From a virus, in the IMG/VR virus record IMGVR_UViG_3300048590_000220, positions 1 to 24,775 of that record: a stretch of DNA of 24,775 nucleotides; one strand, given 5' to 3'. This document shows positions 6,932 through 24,709 of the stretch, piece by piece. Made by a program: the position numbers and the translations under genes. Below the pieces are notes generated by a model that did no database searches, had not been told where the DNA came from, and worked only from the letters and a program-made list of their open reading frames with translations. The stretch's first letter is position 1. Each line of letters starts with the position of its first letter.

Positions 6932-7660
6932 ATGAATCAGACGCAACCATTAGTAAGCTGCATTACTCCCACATATAACAGGACAGAACTTCTCAAGCAC
7001 TCCATAGAGCAATGGCTAGAACAGAGTTATCAGAACAAAGAACTAGTCATTATTGATGATGGCGAAAAGAGTGTTGAAAAGATTGTAAAGAAGTTCCATC
7101 GTCCCAACATTCAATACATTCGATGGCAAGACAAGATATCCATTGGCAGAAAGAGAAACATTGCTTGCGAGTATGCCAGAGGCGAATATATCGCACATTG
7201 GGATGATGATGACTGGAACCACACTAACAGACTAGCTGAACAGGCCAACACTCTTCAGGTGTCCAATGCTGCTGCTACTGGATACAACTCCATCTACATC
7301 TACAATAAGCCATCTAACAGAGCCATTCATTATTACGAAGATCATTACACCCTTGTTGGTGGAACACTAATGTATGTCAAGAATCATTGGAAAACAAATA
7401 GGTTTCCCGATATTAGCATTGGTGAAGACACCTACTTCATGAGACGGATTCCAACAAGCTCATTGATTCCTACAAATGGATTGAATCGGTATGTAGCAAT
7501 TGATGGGCATGGATGTAATGTCAGCAATCGAAACTTTGACCAATGGTTAGCCAGATACCCAGAAGCTAAGGTTGAAGTTGTTCTCCAGATGATTGAGTTG
7601 CCAAAGAAGACCAAACAAAGCTCCAAATGGATCATTGCCAATAATCCTGCACATAAATAA
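6932..7660 (+). CDS. Family 2 glycosyltransferase inside the tail module
   Basis: 242 residues with a clear GT2 (GT-A fold) N-terminus: LVSCITPTYNRTELLKHSIE (residues 7-26), ELVIIDDG (37-44), ISIGRKRNIACEYARGEYIA (69-88) and the metal-binding run HWDDDDW (89-95). A later GEDTYFMRR agrees with the acceptor-side acidic motif. It would transfer a sugar from a nucleotide-sugar to an acceptor in the cytoplasm. The gene sits between the tail terminator and tail tube genes, so a virion protein is the likeliest acceptor; this is inference. There is no Shine-Dalgarno; ATAAATA ends five bases before the ATG. It looks like a cargo gene inserted at a junction. Confidence 0.88.
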   Translation: MNQTQPLVSCITPTYNRTELLKHSIEQWLEQSYQNKELVIIDDGEKSVEKIVKKFHRPNIQYIRWQDKISIGRKRNIACEYARGEYIAHWDDDDWNHTNRLAEQANTLQVSNAAATGYNSIYIYNKPSNRAIHYYEDHYTLVGGTLMYVKNHWKTNRFPDISIGEDTYFMRRIPTSSLIPTNGLNRYVAIDGHGCNVSNRNFDQWLARYPEAKVEVVLQMIELPKKTKQSSKWIIANNPAHK

Positions 7661-12073: not shown

Positions 12074-14686
12074 ATGAGAATCATAGTTAAGTTAGATAAC
12101 GTCGATATCACCAATAGAGTCTTACTGAACAAGACCAGCTTGAACAAGGCAACCAATAACAGAAGTGGTAATGCTTCTATCAGTGTTATTGCAAGCAGTT
12201 CAGATGTTGCCTTATATGATGCTGCTCTGTATGATTCGGCTGTCTATGATTCCTCTGTGTCCAGTGAATACACTAACAAGATTGTGACGATTGAGACAGC
12301 ATCAACCAATGAACTAATCTACAAGGGTATCGTTACTGATGTTGAGATCAAAGTAATTAAGCCTATTGAACATTTGTACGATTTGAAGTTAAAGGAATAT
12401 TCAACAATCCTAGATGAAGTGTTGGTTGTGTCTGAGTCATACTCAAGCAAGACCAATGAATTCATTATTGATGATATCTTTGCATCTTACCTTCCATCAG
12501 TAGATACAACCAATGTTCAGAACCTATTCACTCTGGCTAACTATCAGATCAAAGACAAGACAATCAAGGCTGTCTTAGATGAACTAGCCAAACTTACTAA
12601 TGGTGTCTGGTGGTTAACGGCTGATGATGAGTTGTTCTTTACTTCTATTCTGTATGCTCCTGTTGCTCCATACAAGCTAACATCCAATTCAACAGATCCA
12701 GATTACTTCAAGGCTTTCAATCTTGATATCAAGAAAAACACAAAAGACTTTGCCAACAGAGTAATTGTTTTGGGTGGAGTTGATATTGATGGTGATGAAG
12801 TTAGAGCAGAAGCCAACAACACAACAAGTCAGACCAACTTAGGAAAGATTGTAGAAAAAGTAATTGTCAACAGAGAGATTACCATTACAGCCATAGCTGA
12901 GTTGCTGGCTGATGCTGAACTAGATAACAGGGTATTGACACAGATCTATGGTTCCTTCGATACCATGCAAGCTGGCTTTGAAGTTGGACAGGTGCTAACT
13001 GTTTATCAACCTTCTCATGCTGTCAATCAGGATGTATTGATTACTGGCATTGATTACACTTGGATTGAACCAGACAAGGTAAGGTACAAGATTACATTTG
13101 GTCCTAAGCCAGTGTTTGCTGATGTTGTCAATAAACTACTTGGCAAAGATTCCAAGATGGTTTCTACGGCTATTCCAGATGGCTCTATCACTGCATCTAA
13201 GATTGCCTCAGTGAATGCGTCTGCTATTCAAGGAACAGTAACAGCTTCTCAAGTTGGTTCAGTAAATGCTTCAGTGATTCAAGGAACAGTTGTAGCAGAT
13301 CAAATTGGCTCAGTTAATGCAACAGTAATTCAGGGTGTTATTGTTTCTTCCCAAGTAGCTGATGGAATTATCAATGATCTTTCAAAATACTCTGATGCAC
13401 TAAGACCAATTCCAATCTTGGCTGCTGCTCCATCATTGCCAAGTGCTAACTATCCAGTGAATTCGTTTTATTACAATTCTACTGACAGTACCTTCTACAA
13501 GAATATTGCTGGAGTCTGGACAGCAACAACAGAGAATGATGCTGTATCAGGTAAGTTCGATCTGTACCACATCGGAACAATAAAAGCTGAGAGAATCAAT
13601 GGTCTGATTGTTTCAACTCAGATTGGCTCAGTAAATGCTACAGCTATCAATGGTTCTATTACTTCATCCCAGATAACTTCTCTTGCAGCAGATAAGATTA
13701 CTGGAAGTTTGGTTGCTTCTCAGATCTCAACAGTTAATGCTGCTTCGATTCAAGGAACAATTCAAGCTGCTCAGATTGCTACGGTTAATGCGTCTGCTAT
13801 CACTGGCACAATAGCAGCTTCCCAGATTGCTACGGTTAATGCTTCTTCAATTCAGGGTCAGATATCTGCTGCTCAGATCTCAACTGTAAATGCTTCTTCG
13901 ATTAGTGGACAGATCAACTCAACTCAGATATCTTCTGTGAGTGCTTCGGCTATTACAGGTACTATTGCTGCTTATCAAATTGCTGGTATTGATGCAACAC
14001 AGATAACAGGTTCAATCCAGTCTTCTCAGATAACTAACATTGCAGCATCTAAGATTGATGGGTTGATCCAGTCTTCTCAAATCGACACAATTGCTGCAAC
14101 AAAGATTACAGGTACTATTTCGGCAAGTCAGATCGGAACTGTTAATGCCTCTGCTATCACTGGCAGTATTTCAGCAAGTCAGATCGGAACTGTTAATGCT
14201 TCTGCTATCACTGGTGGTATCACTGCAACACAGATTACAAACGTATATGGGAATGTTGTAACGTCAAGTGTGAGCAATCCTTTTGGTGGTATATATTGTA
14301 CTGGGACTATTACTATTGCTTCTCCCGGTAGTTTATATATTGACAATGGAGAACTAACCGTAAATGGTACATTTGGCAATAGTGGTGGGATTACTTGTAA
14401 GCACTTTACACAGACAGGAAGCAATGTATCAATATCCAATCCGACAAACTGGAGAAATGCTATTGGTGCTGCTGCTACTTCTCATACCCATGCACAATCA
14501 GAAATTACTAATTTAGTTACCGATCTGGGTAATAAGTCTTCATCTACTCATACTCATACAGCTACAGTTACATTAAGTGTGACAACAGCTAATGCCAACA
14601 TTCAAGATTATAGCGGCAATTGGCATAACTTTGATTATGTAACTGGAGTAACTGTACAGAGTGTATCCATAAGTCAGCCTGTATAA
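12074..14686 (+). CDS. Tail hub/fibre protein with 17-residue repeats
   Basis: 870 residues. Residues 1-360 look like a distal tail or hub domain (for example TNGVWWLTADDELFFTSILY and VGQVLTVYQPSHAVNQDVLI). From about 370 to 720 a 17-residue unit, consensus SQIGTVNASAITGTISA, repeats about 16 times with one spacer domain near residues 435-510. The repeats probably form a long beta-structured shaft. The C-terminus has fibre motifs: NWRNAIGAAATSHTHAQSEI and SSTHTHTAT, with HxH pairs as in T4 gp37-like tips that bind metal. It begins three bases after the tape measure. It is a candidate host-recognition protein. Confidence 0.8.
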   Translation: MRIIVKLDNVDITNRVLLNKTSLNKATNNRSGNASISVIASSSDVALYDAALYDSAVYDSSVSSEYTNKIVTIETASTNELIYKGIVTDVEIKVIKPIEHLYDLKLKEYSTILDEVLVVSESYSSKTNEFIIDDIFASYLPSVDTTNVQNLFTLANYQIKDKTIKAVLDELAKLTNGVWWLTADDELFFTSILYAPVAPYKLTSNSTDPDYFKAFNLDIKKNTKDFANRVIVLGGVDIDGDEVRAEANNTTSQTNLGKIVEKVIVNREITITAIAELLADAELDNRVLTQIYGSFDTMQAGFEVGQVLTVYQPSHAVNQDVLITGIDYTWIEPDKVRYKITFGPKPVFADVVNKLLGKDSKMVSTAIPDGSITASKIASVNASAIQGTVTASQVGSVNASVIQGTVVADQIGSVNATVIQGVIVSSQVADGIINDLSKYSDALRPIPILAAAPSLPSANYPVNSFYYNSTDSTFYKNIAGVWTATTENDAVSGKFDLYHIGTIKAERINGLIVSTQIGSVNATAINGSITSSQITSLAADKITGSLVASQISTVNAASIQGTIQAAQIATVNASAITGTIAASQIATVNASSIQGQISAAQISTVNASSISGQINSTQISSVSASAITGTIAAYQIAGIDATQITGSIQSSQITNIAASKIDGLIQSSQIDTIAATKITGTISASQIGTVNASAITGSISASQIGTVNASAITGGITATQITNVYGNVVTSSVSNPFGGIYCTGTITIASPGSLYIDNGELTVNGTFGNSGGITCKHFTQTGSNVSISNPTNWRNAIGAAATSHTHAQSEITNLVTDLGNKSSSTHTHTATVTLSVTTANANIQDYSGNWHNFDYVTGVTVQSVSISQPV
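13176..14240 (+). repeat. About 51-bp coding tandem repeats in the fibre gene
   Basis: The fibre gene repeats a roughly 51-base unit encoding NASAITG-type 17-mers. The copies near 14125-14215 are the most alike; the stretch AGTCAGATCGGAACTGTTAA occurs twice, 51 bases apart. Copies further upstream are diverged. The pattern suggests growth by duplication and possible length variation by recombination. Confidence 0.8.
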
Positions 14687-14912: not shown

Positions 14913-15857
14913 ATGGCTTGGCCTAATAACGTATCTGCTGGACAGGTAATAACATCTGCTCATATCAATGCAATCAAGAATGCTATAGCTACTTGGGGTG
15001 GTGATATTGCTGCTGGTGGTTATACTCTTTCCAATGTTGGTAAATTACTTGTCAACACTTCAACTGATAATACTGTTGATACTGTTCAGGTGAATGGTTC
15101 CATATTGGCAACAACACTAAAAGGAAATATTGATTACAGCTATATTCAAAATGCTCCTAGTGCTGGTATGGGTGCAACAGGACCAACTGGATTAACTGGT
15201 GCTACTGGTGTTCAGGGTCCAACAGGTGCTACAGGTTCTCAGGGTGTTCAGGGTGTTGCAGGATTTACTGGAGCTACTGGTGTTCAGGGAATTCAGGGAC
15301 CAATCGGAGCTACTGGTGTTCAAGGAATTCAGGGACCAATCGGAGCTACTGGTGTTGGCCTTACTGGAGCTACTGGTGTTCAGGGTCTAACTGGTGCTAC
15401 TGGTGTTCAGGGTCCGCAAGGCTTTACTGGTGCAACTGGTGTTCAGCCTTGGAATATTGCAGGTTCGGATATCAATTACACAACAGGCAAAGTTGGTGTT
15501 GGTGCTACTGGTCCGATAACCACAATTGACCTTACAGGAAACTTCGGGCAGACAATTACTTCTGTCTCTGGTGCTACTGGTCTTGCTTCTGTCAATTGTT
15601 CTAATTCAAACTATTACACAATTACCGTCAACGGGAATATTGAGTTAGCTTTCACTACTGTTCCTGCTGGTAGAGCATACTATTTCACTATTGAAGTTAC
15701 TCACACTTCTGGAACAATTACTTGGCCTAGTTCGGTTAAGTGGCCTTCGGACACAGCACCAACATTAACCACTGGAAAGACACATTTGTTCAGTTTCATT
15801 ACTGATGATGGTGGAACTAGGTGGAGAGGATCTTTTCTGAAGGATTACACAAACTGA
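14913..15857 (+). CDS. Collagen-like tail fibre protein
   Basis: 314 residues. Residues 1-85 are a head domain beginning [20 protein letters not shown], a start typical of phage tail appendage proteins. Residues 87-178 are Gly-X-Y triplets (about 30), rich in GAT, GVQ and GPT, which should form a collagen triple helix. One interruption occurs at residues 147-149 (Gly-Val-Gly). Residues 180-314 form a beta-rich C-terminal domain that likely trimerises the fibre and may bind a receptor. Thr in the Y position offers O-glycosylation sites, of interest because two glycosyltransferases are nearby. The DNA of the triplet region is itself repetitive. Confidence 0.85.
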
Positions 15858-17214: not shown

Positions 17215-17629
17215 GGAACGAAAACAGCGAATGGAATTTGAAGGACACGTTTTAACCAAACTGGATTCTCTTACTCAGGAAGTGTCTAGGAATACTGCCG
17301 TTACTGAAGGTGTTGTTGAGAGACTGGATAAGTTGAACGGCAAAGTTGCGACACTTCAGGAGCAAACCAATAAGCAAGATGGCTGGATTACTAAGCATGA
17401 TGAATTATCTATCTTGAGAAGCGATCATATTGTTATGGATGTATCAGAGATAGACAAGAGGGTTAAGACTCTTGAAGAATCCATGCAGTTGTTTGGCGTC
17501 TTCTCCAAGGTTGATTGGATAAAGATTGTAAAGTATGTTGGTCTGGTTTTCATTGCTCTGTTGTTGATTCAAGCTGGTAGAGTTGATTTGATCGGAAATA
17601 TTCTTTCTTTCTTGATGGGTGGTTCATGA
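17195..17629 (+). CDS. Coiled-coil membrane protein, possible holin-like
   Basis: 144 residues: a basic N-terminus, coiled coil over about residues 15-100 (LTKLDSLTQEVSRNTAVTEG, RVKTLEESMQLF), then a hydrophobic segment around 109-127 (WIKIVKYVGLVFIALLLIQA) and a second hydrophobic stretch 131-141. The layout, a long coiled coil with a C-terminal membrane anchor, resembles XhlA-like or other phage membrane proteins found near lysis genes. It is the best lysis candidate in the window, but no endolysin is next to it. It overlaps the glycosyltransferase start (17626) by four bases. Confidence 0.65.
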   Translation: MKKVQDKERKQRMEFEGHVLTKLDSLTQEVSRNTAVTEGVVERLDKLNGKVATLQEQTNKQDGWITKHDELSILRSDHIVMDVSEIDKRVKTLEESMQLFGVFSKVDWIKIVKYVGLVFIALLLIQAGRVDLIGNILSFLMGGS

Positions 17630-18345
17630 AGATTTCTGCAATCTTGAACGGCTACAGAAGACCTAATACTCTTCAGGAACAAATACAGGCTATCAAAGGC
17701 CAAGAGTGTTCAGCTTCGATTGAACTGATGTACTGGCAAAACACTCAGCCAGATATTCAGTATTCCGTTCCTGCTGATATCACTTCTGCTGTCTCCAATG
17801 TCAATCTTGGAGTATGGGCAAGATTTGCTTATGCTCTTAATGCTAAATCTGATTATGTTTGTATCTTCGATGACGATACTATTCCCGGTAAGCTCTGGTT
17901 TCAAAATTGTCTTGATACCTTCGATGCTGTTCCTGATGCTGGACTCTTAGGAACTATCGGAGTAATTTACACTAGACCTGAATATCGGTACTTCAGAAGA
18001 GTTGGATGGGATTGTCCAAATGAATCAGCAACACAAGCGGACATAGTAGGCCACTGCTGGTATTTTCATAGAGACTTTCTTTCAACATTCTTCAGAGAGC
18101 TTCCACCATTAGAACAGTGTCCCTTTGTTGGTGAAGATATTTGGGCTTCTTATATGCTTCAGAAGTTCACCAACAAGAAAACGTATGTTCCTGCCCATCC
18201 TACAAGCAATAGAGAAATGTGGGGCAGTCTTCATGGTGTTAGATATGGTGCTGATGGGAATGAAACATGGTCTAAGAATATTCACTTGATGGATGCTGAC
18301 CTGAAGAGAGCCATAGCTAACGGTTTCCGCTTGATCGCTGCTTGA
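17626..18345 (+). CDS. Second GT-A glycosyltransferase-like protein
   Basis: 239 residues with GT2-like features: MKISAILNGYRRPNTLQEQI at the N-terminus, NVNLGVWARFAYALNAKSDY (59-78), then YVCIFDDDTIPG, in which D82-D84 is the DXD-type metal site. An acidic GEDIWASYML occurs later, and a Trp- and Tyr-rich middle section follows. It lacks close similarity to the first glycosyltransferase (6932-7660), so the two are separate acquisitions. It sits at the end of the tail fibre genes, so fibre or capsid proteins are plausible acceptors; host surface sugars are the alternative. Confidence 0.82.
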   Translation: MKISAILNGYRRPNTLQEQIQAIKGQECSASIELMYWQNTQPDIQYSVPADITSAVSNVNLGVWARFAYALNAKSDYVCIFDDDTIPGKLWFQNCLDTFDAVPDAGLLGTIGVIYTRPEYRYFRRVGWDCPNESATQADIVGHCWYFHRDFLSTFFRELPPLEQCPFVGEDIWASYMLQKFTNKKTYVPAHPTSNREMWGSLHGVRYGADGNETWSKNIHLMDADLKRAIANGFRLIAA

Positions 18346-18883: not shown

Positions 18884-18906
18884 ACCCAGACTCAGGCTCA
18901 CCATCG

Positions 18907-18941
18907 GACCCTGCTAGGCTTCGTGCTTGGCAGGGTCTTTT
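18907..18941 (+). terminator. Intrinsic terminator ending the late gene cluster
   Basis: GACCCTGC (18907-18914) pairs with GCAGGGTC (18930-18937). The inner TAGGC/GCTTG pairs continue the stem around a five-base loop, and TTTT follows. It closes the rightward structural cluster. Its outer stem closely matches that of the terminator after the integrase (20371-20410). Confidence 0.85.
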
Positions 18942-19024: not shown

Positions 19025-19101
19025 GGCCCTATAGCTCAACCGGATAGAGCAACAGCCTTCTAAGCTGGAGGTTGCAGGTTCAAGTCCTGCTAGGGCTACC
19101 A
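19025..19101 (+). tRNA. tRNA-Arg (anticodon UCU)
   Basis: A full cloverleaf of 77 bases. The acceptor stem is GGCCCTA/TAGGGCT with one G-U pair, the D arm is GCTC/GAGC, the anticodon loop is CTTCTAA with anticodon TCT, and the T arm is GCAGG-TTCAAGT-CCTGC. A genome-encoded CCA ends it. The anticodon stem has one mismatch at its outer end (27-43). It decodes AGA, the favoured arginine codon of the phage genes I checked, so it may support phage translation. It also lies beside the integrase and may overlap the attachment site. Confidence 0.93.
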
Positions 19102-19457
19102 AAAAAAAAATTCCTCAATCTGCTATCTCTGCTGATATCAAGCAGATACAAACCCAACATCAATAAAAACAGGGCATAAGAAAGAGGGTCTAGCGTGATA
19201 CCTGAGTTGACCTTCTTTCTTAAGAAAAACGTCATCTGTAGAAAATGATGTAAACATAAGAAAACAAAGCACTTACGAAATCCAAAGTGAACATCTTGCT
19301 TCTAACAAGAAGGTCAAACACCAACTTCTTAAGTCTTTAGTTATCAACTACTTAGCTATTCTCAGATACCCTGTTGACCATCTTTCTTGCATTTCGTAAG
19401 TTGTTGATTTACTATGGTAGGTGTTGGAAAGATGCTCTAGCAGAAAGAAGGTCATGA
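19102..19457. other. attP-like intergenic region with recombinase/excisionase-type repeats
   Basis: 356 bases without a gene, between the tRNA and integrase. A 13-base motif TGACCTTCTTTCT occurs at 19208-19220, with one mismatch at 19375-19387, inverted and perfect at 19442-19454, and as a shorter inverted copy (AAGAAGGTCA) at 19307-19316. A second motif forms a perfect inverted pair: ACTTACGAAAT (19271-19281) and ATTTCGTAAGT (19391-19401). Such ordered motifs suggest protein binding sites of an attP site. The last copy overlaps the integrase Shine-Dalgarno. The crossover core could be in the tRNA 3' part; this is inferred. Confidence 0.6.
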
Positions 19458-20345
19458 ATGTTGCACTTAGGCGAATGGTTTCAAGACTTTACAGAAGAAC
19501 GAAGGATCATGCATAACGTCTCAAAAAAGACCCTGCTCGGCTATCGTCATGCTTGGGCTTGCTTGGGTCAAGGCTTCCTAGACCGGGTGGAGAAGCCCGA
19601 ACACATCAAGAGGCAGATGAAGGATTCTGTTCACCTGAGTATGAGAAGGGTCCGAGCCAAGGAACGGATCACAGAAGGCACCATCAATACCTACATCACG
19701 GTTATCAATGCCTTCCTTCGCTGGTGTCATGAGGAAGACCACTTGGACAGGCTAATCATCATTCCCAAGCTGAAGACTCAAACCAAAGTCAGACAGACTG
19801 TAGCCGATGATGTGGTGAAGGTGCTGAAGAGTTTCAATCCCAAGGGTACGAACCAAACAAGACTCAAGATGGCGATTCTGATTTGTCTTGACTGTGGTCT
19901 GAGGTTGAACGAAGTAAGGAAGATCAAGAAACAGGATGTTGACCTAGAAAATAATCTGCTCACTGTCATAGGGAAGGGAAACAAAGAAAGAATCGTCCCT
20001 ATCTCTGATGAACTGAGAAAACATCTGTTCAAGTACATGAAGACTGTGAATCATGATTACTTGTTTGTTACGTCTGGTGGCAAGCTCTATGGGCTTCGTA
20101 ACATTGCGCGTGACTTGGTTGTCTTGTGCGATAGGCTGAAGGTTGAACAGTTTTCCTTCCACCAGTTGCGCCATACCTTCGCTACCAACTATCTCAAAAA
20201 GGGTGGCGATATCTCCAGACTCAAAAGAATCATGGGTCATTCTTCAATTGTTGTTACTCAGGTATATGAACACCTGAACACTCAAGACCTGAAGAAGAAT
20301 TTTAACAATCTGTCTTCCATCCATAGCGATATCGAAGAAGACTAA
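19458..20345 (+). CDS. int: Tyrosine recombinase / phage integrase
   Basis: 295 residues. An N-terminal SAM-like core-binding domain (about 1-100, with TEGTINTYITVINAFLRWCH) is followed by the catalytic domain. Catalytic residues are visible: Arg in CGLRLNEVRKI, His and Arg in FHQLRHTFATNYL, His in IMGHSS, and the nucleophile Tyr in VTQVYEHLN. It would integrate and excise the phage genome. The length is XerC/D-like and leaves little room for a separate arm-binding domain. GAAGG before the ATG lies within a 13-base repeat shared with the upstream region, suggesting autoregulation. A terminator follows. Confidence 0.93.
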   Translation: MLHLGEWFQDFTEERRIMHNVSKKTLLGYRHAWACLGQGFLDRVEKPEHIKRQMKDSVHLSMRRVRAKERITEGTINTYITVINAFLRWCHEEDHLDRLIIIPKLKTQTKVRQTVADDVVKVLKSFNPKGTNQTRLKMAILICLDCGLRLNEVRKIKKQDVDLENNLLTVIGKGNKERIVPISDELRKHLFKYMKTVNHDYLFVTSGGKLYGLRNIARDLVVLCDRLKVEQFSFHQLRHTFATNYLKKGGDISRLKRIMGHSSIVVTQVYEHLNTQDLKKNFNNLSSIHSDIEED

Positions 20346-20363: not shown

Positions 20364-20672
20364 CTAATCGGACCCTGTAGCCGTCTTCGGTTGCAGGGTC
20401 TTCTTCTTTTGGTGAACAATGATTCTAGGGTGTCTCTTGGGTAGGAACGTCTTAACAGGTTTCTGTGTGAGCCTTTGATACAACCTCAAAGCAACAGACT
20501 CAGGGACTATGAAGGTTGTATAGCTCCTCTTGCCTACACTTGGTCCTAGATTGGACAATCTCAATACACCATCTTCGTTTCTCACCAAGTCTCTGATGGT
20601 CTGCTCGGACAGGTTCCACCAATCCGATAGTTCCTTGACCTTGTAGTGTCTCTCCTGCTTCATAGCAGACAA
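20364..20672 (-). CDS. Excisionase-like helix-turn-helix protein
   Basis: 102 residues. The N-terminus, HYKVKELSDWWNLSEQTIRD followed by LVRNEDGVLRL, is a MerR/excisionase-type helix-turn-helix with a wing. The rest is basic (PVKTFLPKRHPRIIVHQKKK). In temperate phages such small proteins convergent with the integrase often act as recombination directionality factors, and the repeats upstream of int would be candidate binding sites. The role is inferred from the fold and context. Its 3' end overlaps the integrase terminator. Confidence 0.7.
   Translation of the reverse strand: MSAMKQERHYKVKELSDWWNLSEQTIRDLVRNEDGVLRLSNLGPSVGKRSYTTFIVPESVALRLYQRLTQKPVKTFLPKRHPRIIVHQKKKTLQPKTATGSD
20371..20410 (+). 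terminator. Intrinsic terminator after the integrase
   Basis: GACCCTG (20371-20377) pairs with CAGGGTC (20394-20400), extended by TAGCCG/CGGTTG around a TCTT loop, then a T-rich tail (20401-20410). It terminates the rightward integrase transcript. The leftward gene at 20364-20672 reads through the same bases in its last codons. Confidence 0.8.
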
Positions 20673-20715
20673 TCATAGCAGACCATCAGCCAATCAAAGC
20701 TGGTGGTCTGTACGT

Positions 20716-20943
20716 TCATTCAGACCAAGTGAATTCCAACTCTCCCAATGCTGCATCCTTCTTCACCCGTCTAACCCATGCAACAACTTCAGGTGTCTTC
20801 TTCACCTTCAAATGGTTACCCATCAATTCAAGAGTGACTGTAGCACCATAGGAAGCCTTATCAAACATCCTGATACTACGTTCCATCAAAGCCTTCTGTA
20901 CAACCTTCTCAATAAAGTTCACCTTCTCGTGTCTTGCAAGCAT
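20716..20943 (-). CDS. Small basic protein, unknown function
   Basis: 75 residues from the chosen start. Two ATGs are possible, 20949 and 20943. The second is better spaced from the AAAGGGA Shine-Dalgarno, so I use it. The sequence has an N-terminal helix (FIEKVVQKALMERSIRMFDK) then beta-like TVTLELMGNHLKVKK and VAWVRRVKKDAALGELEF. I do not recognise a family. It is the first gene after the strongest sigma70-type promoter in the window and lies upstream of the excisionase-like gene, so a regulatory or early role is plausible. Confidence 0.65.
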   Translation of the reverse strand: MLARHEKVNFIEKVVQKALMERSIRMFDKASYGATVTLELMGNHLKVKKTPEVVAWVRRVKKDAALGELEFTWSE

Positions 20944-20982
20944 AATCATTCCCTTTCATTTTTCATCATCTGCCAACACTCC

Positions 20983-21013
20983 CACTATAGCAGTATTGAT
21001 AGTGATTTGTCAA
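20983..21013 (-). promoter_or_regulatory. Strong leftward promoter with dyad operator
   Basis: On the minus strand TTGACA (21013-21008) is followed after 18 bases by TATAGT (20989-20984), preceded by TGC, an extended -10. An inverted repeat, CACTAT (20983-20988) and ATAGTG (20999-21004), covers the -10 and spacer, so a bound regulator would block the promoter. It would drive the 20943 gene and the excisionase-like gene. Confidence 0.75.
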
Positions 21014-21030
21014 GTGCAGGAAGGCGCAAT

Positions 21031-21177
21031 CCGAACTTTATTTAATGGGCCGGATTCGCAAAAGTTCGGCCTAGTCATATCAACAACTTGGAGGTACTTT
21101 TTCCTATCGGGCAGGGATTCGCAAAATTGTTCCTATCGGGCAGGGATTCGCAAAAGTTTCGCAAAAATTTCGCAAAA
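21031..21177. repeat. TTCGCAAAA repeat cluster and hairpins (iteron- or operator-like)
   Basis: TTCGCAAAA occurs five times in the same orientation: 21055, 21118, 21147, 21158 and 21169 (start positions). The last three are 11 bases apart, one helical turn. A 26-base block beginning TTCCTATCGGGCAGGGATTC is duplicated at 21101-21126 and 21130-21155. An inverted repeat CCGAACTTT (21031-21039) / AAAGTTCGG (21061-21069) precedes them. The stretch 20950-21258 contains no gene apart from this cluster, the leftward promoter and a terminator. Confidence 0.7.
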
Positions 21178-21209
21178 AAAAGAGGAGCAGAACGCATTGG
21201 CCCTGCTCC
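21173..21209 (-). terminator. Intrinsic terminator of the leftward operon
   Basis: GGAGCAG (21184-21190) and CTGCTCC (21203-21209) form a seven-pair stem. On the minus strand it is followed by TC and eight T residues (21180-21173). It ends transcription of the four-gene leftward operon about 50 bases after its last stop. Its T run overlaps the last TTCGCAAAA repeat. Confidence 0.8.
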
Positions 21210-21258
21210 GAACAAATGAAACAAACAAAAAATTAGGAGTTTTTCTGAACATGAGTAT

Positions 21259-21615
21259 TTATGCGTCTTCTTTCCAAATCTGAAGAAACTCCAGAACCAT
21301 CGCGTTATCGTGCTGGAACTGTTCCAATGAGGCCACTAGTCTCTTACTGTCAATAATCGCCTCTTCCAATCTGTCATTGTTTTCCAGAGCCTTCGTGATG
21401 AGTAGCGATAACACCAACTTCAGATTATCCTGTTCGATATGGTGATACATGGTTTTTAATTCGTCCTTGAACTGCTCGGACTGTTTTTTACCATACGCCT
21501 TCCTGCAACTGGAACAATAATCTGAAGAATACTCGCTGCCGTCTTTCTTTTTTGCGATGAAAAGAGAATGTTGCTTAGTCCAGCCACAATTCTTACAGGT
21601 CTTCTCAGTTAGCAT
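21259..21615 (-). CDS. Zinc-ribbon protein, unknown function
   Basis: 118 residues. Four cysteines in two pairs, CKNC (7-10) and CSSC (34-37), form a probable zinc ribbon like those in phage and recombination-associated small proteins. The rest is helical: FKDELKTMYHHIEQDNLKLV, LVASLEQFQHDNAMVLEFLQ. I cannot name the family. The start overlaps the end of the upstream gene (stop 21609) by seven bases, so it is translationally coupled as the last gene of a leftward operon. The stop is embedded in CATAAATAC. Confidence 0.7.
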   Translation of the reverse strand: MLTEKTCKNCGWTKQHSLFIAKKKDGSEYSSDYCSSCRKAYGKKQSEQFKDELKTMYHHIEQDNLKLVLSLLITKALENNDRLEEAIIDSKRLVASLEQFQHDNAMVLEFLQIWKEDA

Positions 21616-21869
21616 CCCTTCTTCCAGTGTTCAGCTAGATCGTTCATGGATGAGATGAACTTGGCAATATTCTCGGACGTTTCGCCTAGATCCTCACATA
21701 GTTCAGCAATATCAATATCTTGATCTTCGTCCACTGGTGTCAATCCTAATCGTTTTCTGATAATAGGATTATCCAGCCAGCTTGCAGAGTTTGGGTAATC
21801 CTCGTCCTTCAAATCGGCTTCCCATTGCGCCATCATTGATTCGTCTTCGGTCATTTTTCTGAAGTTCAT
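21609..21869 (-). CDS. Small acidic protein, unknown function
   Basis: 86 residues, strongly acidic (DEDQDIDIAELCEDLGETSE) with a helical ending MNDLAEHWKKGC. No family is recognised. It has a good Shine-Dalgarno in ACAGGAGAACAACTAA, the last codons of the preceding gene. Small acidic phage proteins sometimes mimic DNA or inhibit host enzymes, but nothing here proves that. It is the third of four leftward genes. Confidence 0.65.
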   Translation of the reverse strand: MNFRKMTEDESMMAQWEADLKDEDYPNSASWLDNPIIRKRLGLTPVDEDQDIDIAELCEDLGETSENIAKFISSMNDLAEHWKKGC

Positions 21870-21870
21870 G

Positions 21871-22146
21871 TTAGTTGTTCTCCTGTCTGATTCTATTATC
21901 CCTCTTTAGTTGTTTCTTATATTCAGCCAACAGGGGATTATTTGACTGAAGAGCATACATATCGATGGCTTCAAAAACGATACACTTAACCTCTACTGGC
22001 AATTGTTTCAGAATATTCAAACTTGCTCGGAACTTTTTTACATTGTGCTTATGATTGCTGATGATGCTCCTACAGGCAGTACAAGTGTTTCTCTTCTTGC
22101 CACTAAACCTTTGTTTGCAGCTATCGCAAGTATGTGTATTTTCCAT
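21871..22146 (-). CDS. Zinc-ribbon protein, unknown function
   Basis: 91 residues. CDSC (7-10) and CTAC (22-25) make a compact four-cysteine zinc ribbon at the N-terminus, followed by a basic segment and helices (ASLNILKQLPVEVKCIVFEA). The N-terminus is analogous to the 21259-21615 protein, so the two may share an origin. Its ribosome binding site is the 3' end of the winged-helix gene, and its own last codons (QENN) form the binding site of the next gene. Confidence 0.7.
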   Translation of the reverse strand: MENTHTCDSCKQRFSGKKRNTCTACRSIISNHKHNVKKFRASLNILKQLPVEVKCIVFEAIDMYALQSNNPLLAEYKKQLKRDNRIRQENN

Positions 22147-22147
22147 C

Positions 22148-22378
22148 TTAGTTGTTCTCCTGTTGAATACTCTTTGTTGGATCTACGGCTATGTAAGTAC
22201 CTCTCCACAACTTAACCACCATTCCAGCCTTCATCAATGGCTTGAGTTTGTATGTGATATTGCTTTTGGTCAACTTCATAGCGCGAGACATTTTATCAAT
22301 ATTCCATGTGGTGTTGCTCTTCAACATCAACTCCCACAATCGGTATGTTTCTTCGGTAAATTGCGTCTTGTCAATCAT
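22148..22378 (-). CDS. Winged-helix DNA-binding protein, candidate regulator
   Basis: 76 residues. A helix-turn-helix is visible in TWNIDKMSRAMKLTKSNITY followed by KLKPLMKAGMVVKL, with a beta wing RGTYIAVD. It resembles small MarR/ArsR-like or replication-initiator-type winged helices. It is the first gene of the leftward four-gene operon. With no CI-like repressor seen elsewhere, it is the best candidate for the phage regulator; this is inference. The start follows AGGAG in a GGACAGGACAGGAG context, with TATAAATA further upstream. Confidence 0.7.
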   Translation of the reverse strand: MIDKTQFTEETYRLWELMLKSNTTWNIDKMSRAMKLTKSNITYKLKPLMKAGMVVKLWRGTYIAVDPTKSIQQENN

Positions 22379-22585
22379 TGTTCTGTTCTCCTGTCCTGTC
22401 CTTATTTATACAATCTGAATTTTCTGAATACCCTTACACTTCAAGCGTAACAACAACATAGATATTTGTCTATATTTTAATTCGACAATTACTGCTATGA
22501 ACAATATTTTGACTCTCTTTGGATAGGTGCTGAACTAAGTGCTTTGTTTTCAGTGAAGGCTAGTTCTTGTGGAATATTCGTGTTG
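22379..22585. other. Non-coding region between divergent TATAAATA motifs
   Basis: About 200 bases with no credible gene. The leftward TTGTATAAATA lies at 22413-22403 and the rightward copy at 22583-22593, so the stretch looks like a divergent promoter region. A small hairpin, ATAGA/TCTAT, lies near 22460-22475. Confidence 0.5.
22403..22413 (-). promoter_or_regulatory. Leftward TTGTATAAATA promoter-like motif
   Basis: On the minus strand TTGTATAAATA lies 24 bases before the ATG of the winged-helix gene. It is identical over 11 bases to the motif at 22583-22593 on the plus strand. No clear -35 is seen. Confidence 0.55.
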
Positions 22586-22593
22586 TATAAATA
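22583..22593 (+). promoter_or_regulatory. Rightward TTGTATAAATA promoter-like motif
   Basis: TTGTATAAATA precedes the structured non-coding region, with transcription expected to begin near 22600. It matches the leftward motif at 22413-22403. No gene start follows for more than 1 kb, so its product would be an RNA. Confidence 0.55.
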
Positions 22594-23045
22594 GAGTTGG
22601 GTAACGAAGACAGACGAAAAAAGTTTGTACTTTTTATTCGATAGATGAAACCTTTTTGCTTTGGTTTGCGTCTATATAAGTGTTGGATACTTTAGGAGAT
22701 GTTGTTGTTGAAATCTCTAGGAAGGAAACTTCCCTGCTGCTTAAGAGGTCGTGCATTGGCCCTTTTCGGAAGCAGGATTCTCAAGGTTACGTTCTTGAGG
22801 TCAAATCGGACCGTCTGCCCTGACTTTCGTGAATTTTTATTTGAGTCCTTAAGCAAGACAATAGAATACTAGGAAGCGATCATACGGGAGATACACCGGG
22901 CGAAAAGATGATTTGCATATGCCGCGATGAAGCTAAGTTAAATTCTCGCTCTCTACTATCAGGATATTGATAGTACAGATACTCTAAAGATTGCCTTTCC
23001 GTGAGTTTTTCTTCTCCCGACTGGTTAAGATTTAGTGTATCTAAA
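22594..23045 (+). ncRNA. Candidate large structured non-coding RNA
   Basis: A dense set of perfect helices is visible on the plus strand. AAAAAGT/ACTTTTT pairs at 22618-22635. GGAAG-GAAA-CTTCC (22720-22733) is a GNRA hairpin. CTCAAG/CTTGAG pairs at 22780-22799. TACTATCA/TGATAGTA (22954-22975) is an eight-pair hairpin. Longer-range pairs are TGCTTAAG (22738-22745) with CTTAAGCA (22848-22855) and CGGGAGA (22885-22891) with TCTCCCG (23013-23019). The strand UATGC...GCTAAG (about 22919-22936) resembles an 11-base GAAA tetraloop receptor. No reading frame of note is present. Large ornate phage RNAs such as GOLLD and ROOL are natural comparators; membership is unproven. Confidence 0.55.
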
Positions 23046-23067
23046 AATACTTTAATAACTTAAATAT

Positions 23068-23512
23068 ATTGAACGAAGTTCAATTTCCGAACGAAGTGAG
23101 GAAATAGATAACAGTAAAGAAACTGTTACGAAACTTCTAAGTAACTGATAGAATCAGTATCTATCTTTAATGGCTCGAATTGTGTTTATACTCATTTAAG
23201 AAGGTATCATTTGCCTTCGGCAAACGGGCTTCGCCCGATTCCTTTTGAGTGTATAATATTCATAAGAAGAATTGAAACTGTTCTCTACACTAATAAGAAG
23301 GATTGAAGATGTATCCTTACATTAAGAGAAGGTATCTTGTTGGCTTCGCCAACTGAACTTCGTTCAATCCTCTTGATCTCAATAACAAATGTAAAGAGTA
23401 TTATTCACTCCAAGAAAAGGATTGAAGATGTATCCTTACAATAAGAGAAGATATCATTTGCCTTCGGCAAACGAACTTCGTTCGATTTCATCGGATTCAA
23501 TTAAAGAGTGAA
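23068..23512. repeat. Array of tandem twin-hairpin units with compensatory stems
   Basis: Paired triloop hairpins repeat. The first is ATTGAAC-GAA-GTTCAAT (23068-23084). Then come TTTGCC-TTC-GGCAAA (23210-23224) with CGGGC-TTC-GCCCG (23225-23237), GTTGGC-TTC-GCCAAC (23339-23353) with TGAAC-TTC-GTTCA (23354-23366), and TTTGCC-TTC-GGCAAA (23457-23471) with CGAAC-TTC-GTTCG (23472-23484). Outer stems enclose some pairs: TTACATT/AATGTAA (23317-23323/23388-23394) and TTCACTC/GAGTGAA (23404-23410/23506-23512). A further unit, TAACAGT/ACTGTTA with ACTGAT/ATCAGT, lies inside ATAGAT/ATCTAT (23104-23164). AAGGAT/ATCCTT hairpins (23298-23318, 23417-23437) separate the units. Confidence 0.8.
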
Positions 23513-23605
23513 AGAGACAATAGAAATGGATTGATACACTCTAAGAAAGAATGATGCCTGCTTGAAACTGATGATGACTGATTGACACTTACGATGCCCG
23601 CTTGA

Positions 23606-23710
23606 GCCTGTCCCTGCCTTCCCCTGCCAGCTTCGGCACGTTCCGTCCCTGCTAGACCCGCTCCTGCCTGTCCCTGCCTTCCTAGACCCGCTCCTGCCCT
23701 TCCCCTGCCC
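23606..23710. repeat. C-rich degenerate tandem repeat with quadruplex potential
   Basis: CTAGACCCGCTCCTGCC occurs at 23652-23668 and 23682-23698 (30 bases apart). GCCTGTCCCTGCCTTCC occurs at 23606-23622 and 23666-23682 (60 apart). On the minus strand 23710-23687 has four G runs of three or more with loops of 2, 2 and 7, a canonical quadruplex pattern. Base composition differs sharply from the AT-rich stretch before it. The stretch 23521-23605 shows nothing notable. Confidence 0.75.
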
Positions 23711-23723
23711 ACTAAGTACCAAT

Positions 23724-24161
23724 GTGCATGAGCTACGCCTAGACCCAGAGCCATTCTGGACATATCGACAAGAGCCATACGTTATTCAACCTTCAAGAGA
23801 CTACGAAGGCTTTGTGTACCTCATAACCAACAAGCAGACCAACAGGAAGTACATAGGCAAGAAATCATTCTGGTCTAGGGTATCGCTCAAGAGTGGCAGG
23901 AAGCAGACCATAGAAAGCGATTGGAAGAAGTATTACGGATCTTCTGATGAACTGAGCCAAGATATCAAACTCATTGGCAAGCACAACTTCAATAGAGAAA
24001 TACTTCACCTATGCCGAACAAAGAAAGAAACAACATTCTTTGAACTTCAGGAACTATATGCAAGGCAAGTGCTGTTGTCTGAAGAGTACTACAACAAGTC
24101 TATTCAAGGCAAGTTCTTCAAGTCAGAGATGCAGAAAACAATAAATACAATCAGGAGTTGA
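23724..24161 (+). CDS. GIY-YIG-like endonuclease
   Basis: 145 residues from a GTG start. The GIY-YIG core is degenerate but clear: GFVYLITNKQTNRKYIGKKS, in which VYL replaces GIY and YIG is intact, then FWSR with the likely catalytic Arg. A middle KKYYGSSDEL and a C-terminal NREILHLC/TTFFELQELYARQV/YYNKSIQGKF follow, as in phage homing-type nucleases. It cuts DNA, probably as a free-standing homing endonuclease. No Shine-Dalgarno is seen, and the same frame is open upstream to 23586 through the C-rich repeat, so the start is uncertain. CTAGACCC recurs at 23739 within the gene. Confidence 0.78.
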   Translation: MHELRLDPEPFWTYRQEPYVIQPSRDYEGFVYLITNKQTNRKYIGKKSFWSRVSLKSGRKQTIESDWKKYYGSSDELSQDIKLIGKHNFNREILHLCRTKKETTFFELQELYARQVLLSEEYYNKSIQGKFFKSEMQKTINTIRS

Positions 24162-24165
24162 ACAC

Positions 24166-24363
24166 ATGGAAATCAAAACGTATGAACAGTTAAGGCGAGA
24201 AAGAATTGATGAAGCAAGGGAATGGGGAAACCTGTACCGTAAGCTGTCATTGCAGACGGCATTGGAGAACAGGCGAGACAGGTATGAACAGTTTGATTGT
24301 AGGTTGACTATGAGGGAAGAAGAGTTGTTGTATGCCAAAGAAATTGGAAAGAGCTTGCGCTAA
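24166..24363 (+). CDS. Small charged protein, unknown function
   Basis: 65 residues, highly charged and helical (EQLRRERIDEAREWGNLYRK, RRDRYEQFDCRLTMREEELL). No family is recognised. The start has AGGAG about 11 bases upstream, with ATAAATA at 24141-24147. Its last 32 bases overlap the HNH gene in another frame, so the two are coupled and it may assist the packaging nuclease. That role is a guess from position. Confidence 0.65.
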   Translation: MEIKTYEQLRRERIDEAREWGNLYRKLSLQTALENRRDRYEQFDCRLTMREEELLYAKEIGKSLR

Positions 24364-24709
24364 TCGAAGTTGTCCGAACACAACAAGTAATTTTATGGGT
24401 TACTGCAATGATTGTGTGAATGAACGCAACAGGCAACAACCAAGGCAAGACAAGAAAGAATACGATACAGAGCAATGGAAGAAGTTGAGAGCGATTGTGT
24501 TGGCGAAGAATCCGTTATGCCTAGTCTGCCAGAGCTTCGGAGAGACAACCATAGCTACTGAAGTTGACCACATCAGAGAATGGAGAACAGGCAGAGACAA
24601 AGCAGAGCAATGGAGATTGTTTGTGGATATGAACAATATGCAATCCCTTTGTAAGAGTTGTCACAGTAAGAAGACGTTCAAACACTGGCTGAATAATCGT
24701 CGTAAGTGA
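24332..24709 (+). CDS. HNH endonuclease of the packaging module
   Basis: 125 residues. An N-terminal cysteine cluster (C9, C14, C25, C28) precedes the HNH domain: CLVC (63-66), the catalytic VDHI (D79, H80), NNMQSLC (N101-C107) and CKSCH (107-111), a zinc-bound beta-beta-alpha-metal fold. Next to terS across the joined ends, it matches the HNH proteins known to work with terminase in cos cleavage of HK97-like phages. The start overlaps the upstream gene. The 66 bases after the stop and the first 73 of the window are the likely cos region. Confidence 0.9.
   Translation: MPKKLERACANRSCPNTTSNFMGYCNDCVNERNRQQPRQDKKEYDTEQWKKLRAIVLAKNPLCLVCQSFGETTIATEVDHIREWRTGRDKAEQWRLFVDMNNMQSLCKSCHSKKTFKHWLNNRRK

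Follow-up and report, generated by a model that had tools for sequence, protein, structure and literature searches.

The origin of phage phiX174 contains C-GAA-G DNA mini-hairpins, GC-GAA-GC being an unusually stable DNA mini-hairpin, and the hairpin promoters of N4-type phages likewise consist of a short stem and a three-base loop. At the RNA level, the put RNAs of phage HK022 (putL and putR) comprise two stem-loops in ~70 nt and suppress intrinsic as well as Rho-dependent termination at least 10 kb away; their long, bulged stems, which include a triple helix, contact the zinc-binding domain of the β' subunit of RNA polymerase (PMC9378689). Short adjacent palindromes also occur as double-hairpin elements in the organelles of fungi, green algae and sponges. 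Double-hairpin repeats are present in sponge mtDNA (PMC2800124), palindromic repeats of Volvox organelles are considered selfish (PMC2670323), and in the yeast GC42 element and the sponge repeats the loops vary whereas the stems are conserved (PMC4478555, PMC2800124).

Here we describe an array of double hairpins, three tandem units (U1 to U3) and one inverted copy (U0), in an IMG/VR virus record of 24,775 bases that is classed as linear and is referred to in its full length as the window. Like put, a unit places two adjacent stem-loops in ~70 nt of phage non-coding DNA ahead of an operon, but its stems are perfect, 5-6 bp long and closed by triloops, and it occurs in three tandem copies plus one inverted copy. 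With the organelle elements the array shares short adjacent palindromes, the presence of several copies in both orientations and the non-coding location, whereas its loops are constant, its stems compensated, its copies clustered and its carrier a phage; dispersal of the mobile double-hairpin or REP type was not seen, as the window holds only the clustered copies and the loci and genomes searched hold none. The phiX174 and N4-type hairpins resemble the modules, read as single-stranded DNA, in the short stem and the GAA-type loop closed by C-G. Unlike them, the modules are abutting double hairpins, and neither an N4-like virion RNA polymerase nor a rolling-circle replication gene was recognised in the window. 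A likeness to lambda-type nut sites lies in the boxA-like core CTCTTTA, which precedes U2 and U3 on the minus strand (23392-23398 and 23502-23508) and is followed by the GAA-loop hairpins. With 4 occurrences against 4.6 expected this motif shows no enrichment in the window, and unlike in nut sites a full boxA is found only with three mismatches, the hairpins have triloops instead of pentaloops and no N-like protein was recognised. ROOL and GOLLD are similar in being associated with a large phage non-coding region, but the locus does not match an Rfam covariance model. The array works like several known systems, and in full tests it could be assigned to no known family. Compensation between repeats within one genome is a rare hint, independent of homologues, of a non-coding phage element that is kept by its shape.

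Genome and setting of the array

The window reads as a siphophage-type genome. The gene for the small terminase subunit (74-508, Terminase_4) is located at the left end and is followed by those for the large terminase (501-2057), the portal, the capsid and the tail, whereas a rightward SegE-type GIY-YIG gene (23724-24161) and an HNH gene (24332-24709) occupy the right end. As HNH and small terminase thus lie at opposite ends and the contigs of two relatives, L272 and L278, also open just ahead of the small terminase gene (with its start codon at 33 and 79, respectively), we infer that the record probably covers the whole genome of a cos phage of 24.8 kb, cut at its cohesive ends. Its relatives are distant, with best identities of ~45% for the terminase and ~52% for the capsid. 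Comparisons of the integrase, the tRNA or the tail protein did not identify a host, and no replication gene was recognised in the window.

Within the tail gene region two genes (6932-7660 and 17626-18345) look by eye like family 2 glycosyltransferases, the product of the latter having no match among annotated phages, and the region between them encodes a tail protein with 17-residue repeats (51 bp; 13202-14235) and a collagen-like G-X-Y protein (15183-15414). In the right part a tRNA-Arg(TCT) gene (19025-19101) directly precedes the integrase gene (19458-20345), and repeated AAGAAGGTCA-like sites at ~19200-19460 resemble integrase arm sites and may mark an attachment region. The integrase gene is followed by a block of small leftward genes (20364-22378, minus strand, first start near 22378). 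Among the promoter-like sites of the right part the best one, TTGACA-18-TATAGT (21013-20984, minus strand), is situated ahead of the leftward gene 20949-20716, and tandem TTCCTATCGGGCAGGGATTCGCAAAA-like copies are found in a short non-coding stretch at ~21097-21150.

The leftward genes and the GIY-YIG gene are separated by 1.34 kb (22380-23723) with no convincing ORF and no Rfam family, the only large non-coding region of the window, which holds the hairpin array. It is bordered by the gene for a probable winged-helix (MarR/ArsR-like) protein (22148-22378, minus strand), a candidate regulator whose best Pfam match is MarR with an E value of 0.0041, below the curated cut-off. An AT-rich stretch (23030-23075) adjoins the array, and between the array and the GIY-YIG gene the plus strand carries a C-rich, G-poor degenerate repeat (CCTGCC; 23586-23720). 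With 62 C versus 23 G in 130 nt this tract shows the largest C-over-G excess of the window, includes its only G-quadruplex motif (23687-23710, minus strand) and, by its composition, could be a Rho-type (rut-like) site. The GC skew at the array tracks the gene strand without a clear origin signal, DnaA-box-like sites show no excess (21 found, 29.8 expected), and promoter-like sites near the array are no more frequent than in shuffles.

Anatomy and compensation of the double hairpins

The units U1 to U3 are arranged in tandem ~120 bases apart and have the leader AGAAG(G/A)TATC in common, at 23199-23208, 23327-23336 and 23446-23455, respectively, in agreement with a first-pass annotation of this DNA. 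U1 (23187-23253, plus strand) carries the hairpins TTTGCC-TTC-GGCAAA (23210-23224) and CGGGC-TTC-GCCCG (23225-23237), U2 (23317-23394, plus strand) carries GTTGGC-TTC-GCCAAC (23339-23353) and TGAAC-TTC-GTTCA (23354-23366), and U3 (23404-23512, plus strand) carries TTTGCC-TTC-GGCAAA (23457-23471) and CGAAC-TTC-GTTCG (23472-23484); the covariance model scores are 72.9, 69.4 and 75.7 bits. All hairpins of the annotation, which had assigned two adjacent ones with three-base loops to each unit, were found again, and hairpin 1 abuts hairpin 2 without a spacer in every unit. The TTC triloop is invariant, as had been claimed, and leader and lengths are constant, whereas the stems vary with full compensation.

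In U1-U3 the module is mounted on a short outer helix, resulting in a three-way junction. The outer stems, all assigned by reading, comprise 7-8 pairs and differ in sequence from unit to unit. The seven-pair stems already ascribed to U2 (TTACATT/AATGTAA, 23317-23323/23388-23394) and U3 (TTCACTC/GAGTGAA, 23404-23410/23506-23512) could both be read, and U1 has one too (TATACTCA/TGAGTGTA, 23187-23194/23246-23253, one G-T). As stems of seven pairs turn up by chance not infrequently in stretches of this size, we give the outer stems little weight alone. In the double-hairpin units a helix, which in U1 is AAGG.AT/AT.CCTT with a T-T mismatch, bears both hairpins at its tip and resembles the stem of the simple hairpins that are interspersed on the plus strand. 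These are S2 (23298-23318, AAGGAT-TGAAGATGT-ATCCTT), located upstream of U2, S3 (23417-23437), which is identical in sequence to S2, precedes the U3 leader and is enclosed by the U3 outer stem, and S1 (23268-23284, AGAA-TTGAAACTG-TTCT), a related and partly compensated version of S2 and S3.

A covariance model built solely from U1-U3 detected U0 on the minus strand at 23067-23110 with 21.3 bits and E=0.0024, the next best match having an E value of 0.37. U0, TATCTA-[TTTCC-TC-AC-TTC-GT-TC-GGAAA][TTGAAC-TTC-GTTCAA]T, keeps TATC, the abutting order and the hairpin TTGAAC-TTC-GTTCAA, and its hairpin 1 is longer with two mismatched positions; a perfect 7-bp hairpin (23068-23084) lies within it. In all four copies TATC is followed, after 1 to 3 nt, by hairpin 1 and then directly by hairpin 2; the GAA loops are on the minus strand in U1-U3 and on the plus strand in U0. 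U0 is a genuine fourth copy, and the array consists of four homologous modules, three in tandem and one inverted. The upstream unit of the same architecture proposed in the annotation could not be upheld: the two further hairpins at 23104-23163 (plus strand), AACAGT-aaagaa-ACTGTT and ACTGAT-AGA-ATCAGT, have loops of another kind and are separated by a gap of ~16 nt, so that they are at most a loose analogue of the double-hairpin units.

Between 23060 and 23520 we counted nine perfect hairpins that have a triloop and a stem of 5 bp or more, and three abutting pairs, as compared to means of 0.75 and 0.0015 and maxima of 5 and 1 in 2000 dinucleotide shuffles of this segment. Triloop hairpins of the type C-TTC-G/C-GAA-G occur seven times in the 417 nt of the array; such loops account for 20 of the 4513 perfect triloop hairpins in the related phage and prophage sequences that were fetched (3.37 Mb). 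The array is real and statistically solid. In the alignment of U1-U3 all 42 pair cells (14 modelled pairs in three units) are paired, slid partners being paired in 21-50% of cases, and five pairs are changed on both sides, a result matched by 2 of 500 shuffles. The 33 pairs of the hairpin stems are all Watson-Crick, with no G-U. An alignment of three sequences is strong for pairing and weak for phylogeny. The earlier claim of compensation in every stem holds insofar as all pairs are kept and double changes are present, but hairpin 1 is identical in U1 and U3.

Identity among U1-U3 amounts to 90-100% in the leader and 63-86% in the hairpins, and drops to 34-45% in the downstream flanks and to 31-34% in the upstream flanks of U1 versus the others. 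U2 and U3, however, are 97% identical in their upstream flanks, yet differ in 3 of 11 stem pairs. As leader, loops, lengths and pairing are kept while the flanks are mostly lost, we favour selection on shape, and the structure is likely to be kept across the copies, which are compared here within one genome. To call the compensation direct evidence that structure is selected, as the annotation did, is nevertheless too strong. Template switching at imperfect palindromes perfects them by mutation, without selection (PMC7202029), and could also yield compensated stems, which, together with the stem differences between U2 and U3 despite their near-identical flanks, makes a palindrome-specific mutational process a live alternative.

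Folding and search for relatives

Relative to shuffles the array reaches RNA folding z-scores of -5.2 (plus strand) and -4.9 (minus strand) and DNA folding z-scores of -5.1 (plus strand) and -6.4 (minus strand), the latter being the lowest. With DNA parameters and 15-nt flanks the plus-strand probabilities of hairpin 1 and hairpin 2 are 0.85 and 0.97 in U1, 0.98 and 0.71 in U2, and 0.88 and 0.50 in U3, whereas with RNA parameters U1 loses hairpin 1 (0.17) and U3 loses hairpin 2 (0.00) to other pairings. DNA parameters lower hairpin 2 of U3 to 0.25 on the minus strand, and within a longer context they too give up hairpin 2 of U2; U0 folds poorly under both parameter sets. The predicted folding tilts slightly to single-stranded DNA over RNA, the double hairpin being retained with greater consistency under DNA parameters, in line with the suggestion that a role as single-stranded DNA is as possible as one as RNA. 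As plus-strand RNA, U1 has an alternative hairpin, GAAGGUA/UGCCUUC, which lacks conservation in U2 and U3 and was dismissed as the conserved structure.

Rfam searches of the region at gathering and at relaxed thresholds gave no match; a hit to the CRISPR-repeat family RF01320 was discarded as chance (18 bits, 37 needed). The region had no blastn match in phages and a chance match of 30 nt in plasmids, and scans of IMG/VR for the hairpin, leader and flank patterns returned only matches without twin-hairpin context. The element was absent from ~310 loci, fetched mostly via the GIY-YIG, terminase (TerL) and capsid proteins (best identities ~45-52%). R1, a covariance model built from U1-U3, found no match in 49 records and 798 genomes, of which 399 belong to the phylum of G001, a Bacillota genome, and 399 to that of G002, which is recorded as Succinivibrionaceae. 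This empty genome search proves little, as no host could be identified and the filters were strict. Within the DNA searched the array appears to be unique.

Possible roles of the array

Our preferred but weakly held reading is that the modules form hairpins as DNA, in a region for control or for the start of replication; a leader RNA and selfish double palindromes follow closely behind. What counts for it are the Watson-Crick stems with double changes, no loop change and no G-U, the core being kept and the flanks lost, the z-score of the minus strand as single-stranded DNA, and the hairpin probabilities predicted with DNA parameters, as well as the setting: the array is adjacent to an AT-rich stretch and lies in the one large non-coding region of a probably complete phage in which no replication gene was recognised. 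Against it count the lack of a DnaA-box excess and of a clear skew signal, the flipped strand of the GAA loop in U0, the displacement of U2 hairpin 2 in longer context, the poor fold of U0 and the empty homologue searches. In this mechanism the modules would be kept as shape, not as sequence, and the working molecule would be single-stranded or extruded DNA. Very stable mini-hairpins would form on whichever strand has the C-GAA-G loops, the minus strand in U1-U3 and the plus strand in U0, and a host or phage protein of replication or transcription may recognise their loop and junction, much as in the single-strand initiation hairpins of phages or in N4-type hairpin promoters. Read as DNA, the array would add a shape-coded signal to phage biology. 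In its full form the proposal is that a host or phage protein reads loop and junction, and not the sequence of the stems, on single-stranded or extruded DNA and thereby initiates replication or transcription. This would be a shape-coded signal undescribed in such phages, and we regard the full proposal as doubtful.

The array could also be, with a probability we consider modest, the leader RNA of a rightward transcript into the packaging and structural operon, its double hairpins acting in cis on the elongating RNA polymerase as HK022 put does, so that it would read through terminators, for instance a Rho-type site within the C-rich tract. It is located upstream of the GIY-YIG and HNH genes and, once the genome is circularised, of the terminase and the long rightward gene block, and the plus-strand RNA z-score is in accordance with such a role. 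Since the tract just downstream (23586-23715), with its extreme C-over-G excess, could be a Rho-type site, we keep this as a serious rival, but its rut-like character is a matter of composition, the double hairpin is not the preferred plus-strand RNA fold in U1 and U3, the short triloop stems are unlike those of put, and promoters are not in excess near the array. An inverted copy and the absence of G-U pairs would likewise be unexpected for an RNA element. Should it hold, the array would represent a new cis-acting leader element. Somewhat less probable in our view are selfish or mutation-driven double palindromes, self-copied or locally duplicated, with stems perfected by template switch, in the way put forward for the palindromic and double-hairpin repeats of organelles, and no function for the phage. 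The divergence of the U2 and U3 stems, the mosaic flanks, the inverted copy and the perfecting of quasipalindromes by template switching (PMC7202029) are consistent with this, as is the fact that excision of TATC through hairpin 2 leaves AAGG|ATT, resembling the hairpin-free AAGG|ATTGAAG at 23298 and 23417. All copies, however, lie within 420 nt, the rest of the phage, the 3.9 Mb of DNA fetched and ~800 genomes contain none, constant loops and varying stems are the reverse of the GC42 and sponge pattern, and no transposase or reverse transcriptase was recognised in the window. This reading would bring organelle-type double-hairpin repeats into a phage and give an example of 'covariation' without function.

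That the array is part of a large structured phage RNA (~22610-23540), analogous to ROOL and GOLLD and of a different family, is unlikely. The RNA fold of 22610-23560 has a z-score of -4.3, 1.34 kb without a gene is much for a 24.8-kb phage, and the window contains a tRNA-Arg gene; yet Rfam gave no match at a useful score, the upstream half alone is weakly better than shuffles (z -1.8), and the folding signal of the array is strand-symmetric. Least probable are double-stranded operators for a dimeric regulator, for which the MarR/ArsR-like protein encoded at 22148-22378 at the border of the region would be at hand. Operators keep their sequence, whereas here the half-sites change and complementarity is kept; shape being kept instead of sequence argues against such sites, and we rejected them.

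Intrinsic terminators, i.e. a G+C-rich stem followed by a T run, were also dismissed for the double hairpins, as only one double-hairpin arm per strand appears in a scan, and the T runs of these arms are broken. In the strong terminator-like sites of this phage, at 18906-18938 and 20370-20401, the stems comprise 14 bp. These sites are related hairpins with common GGACCCTG...CAGGGTCT stems, the former located after the last rightward gene before the tRNA gene and the latter after the integrase gene.
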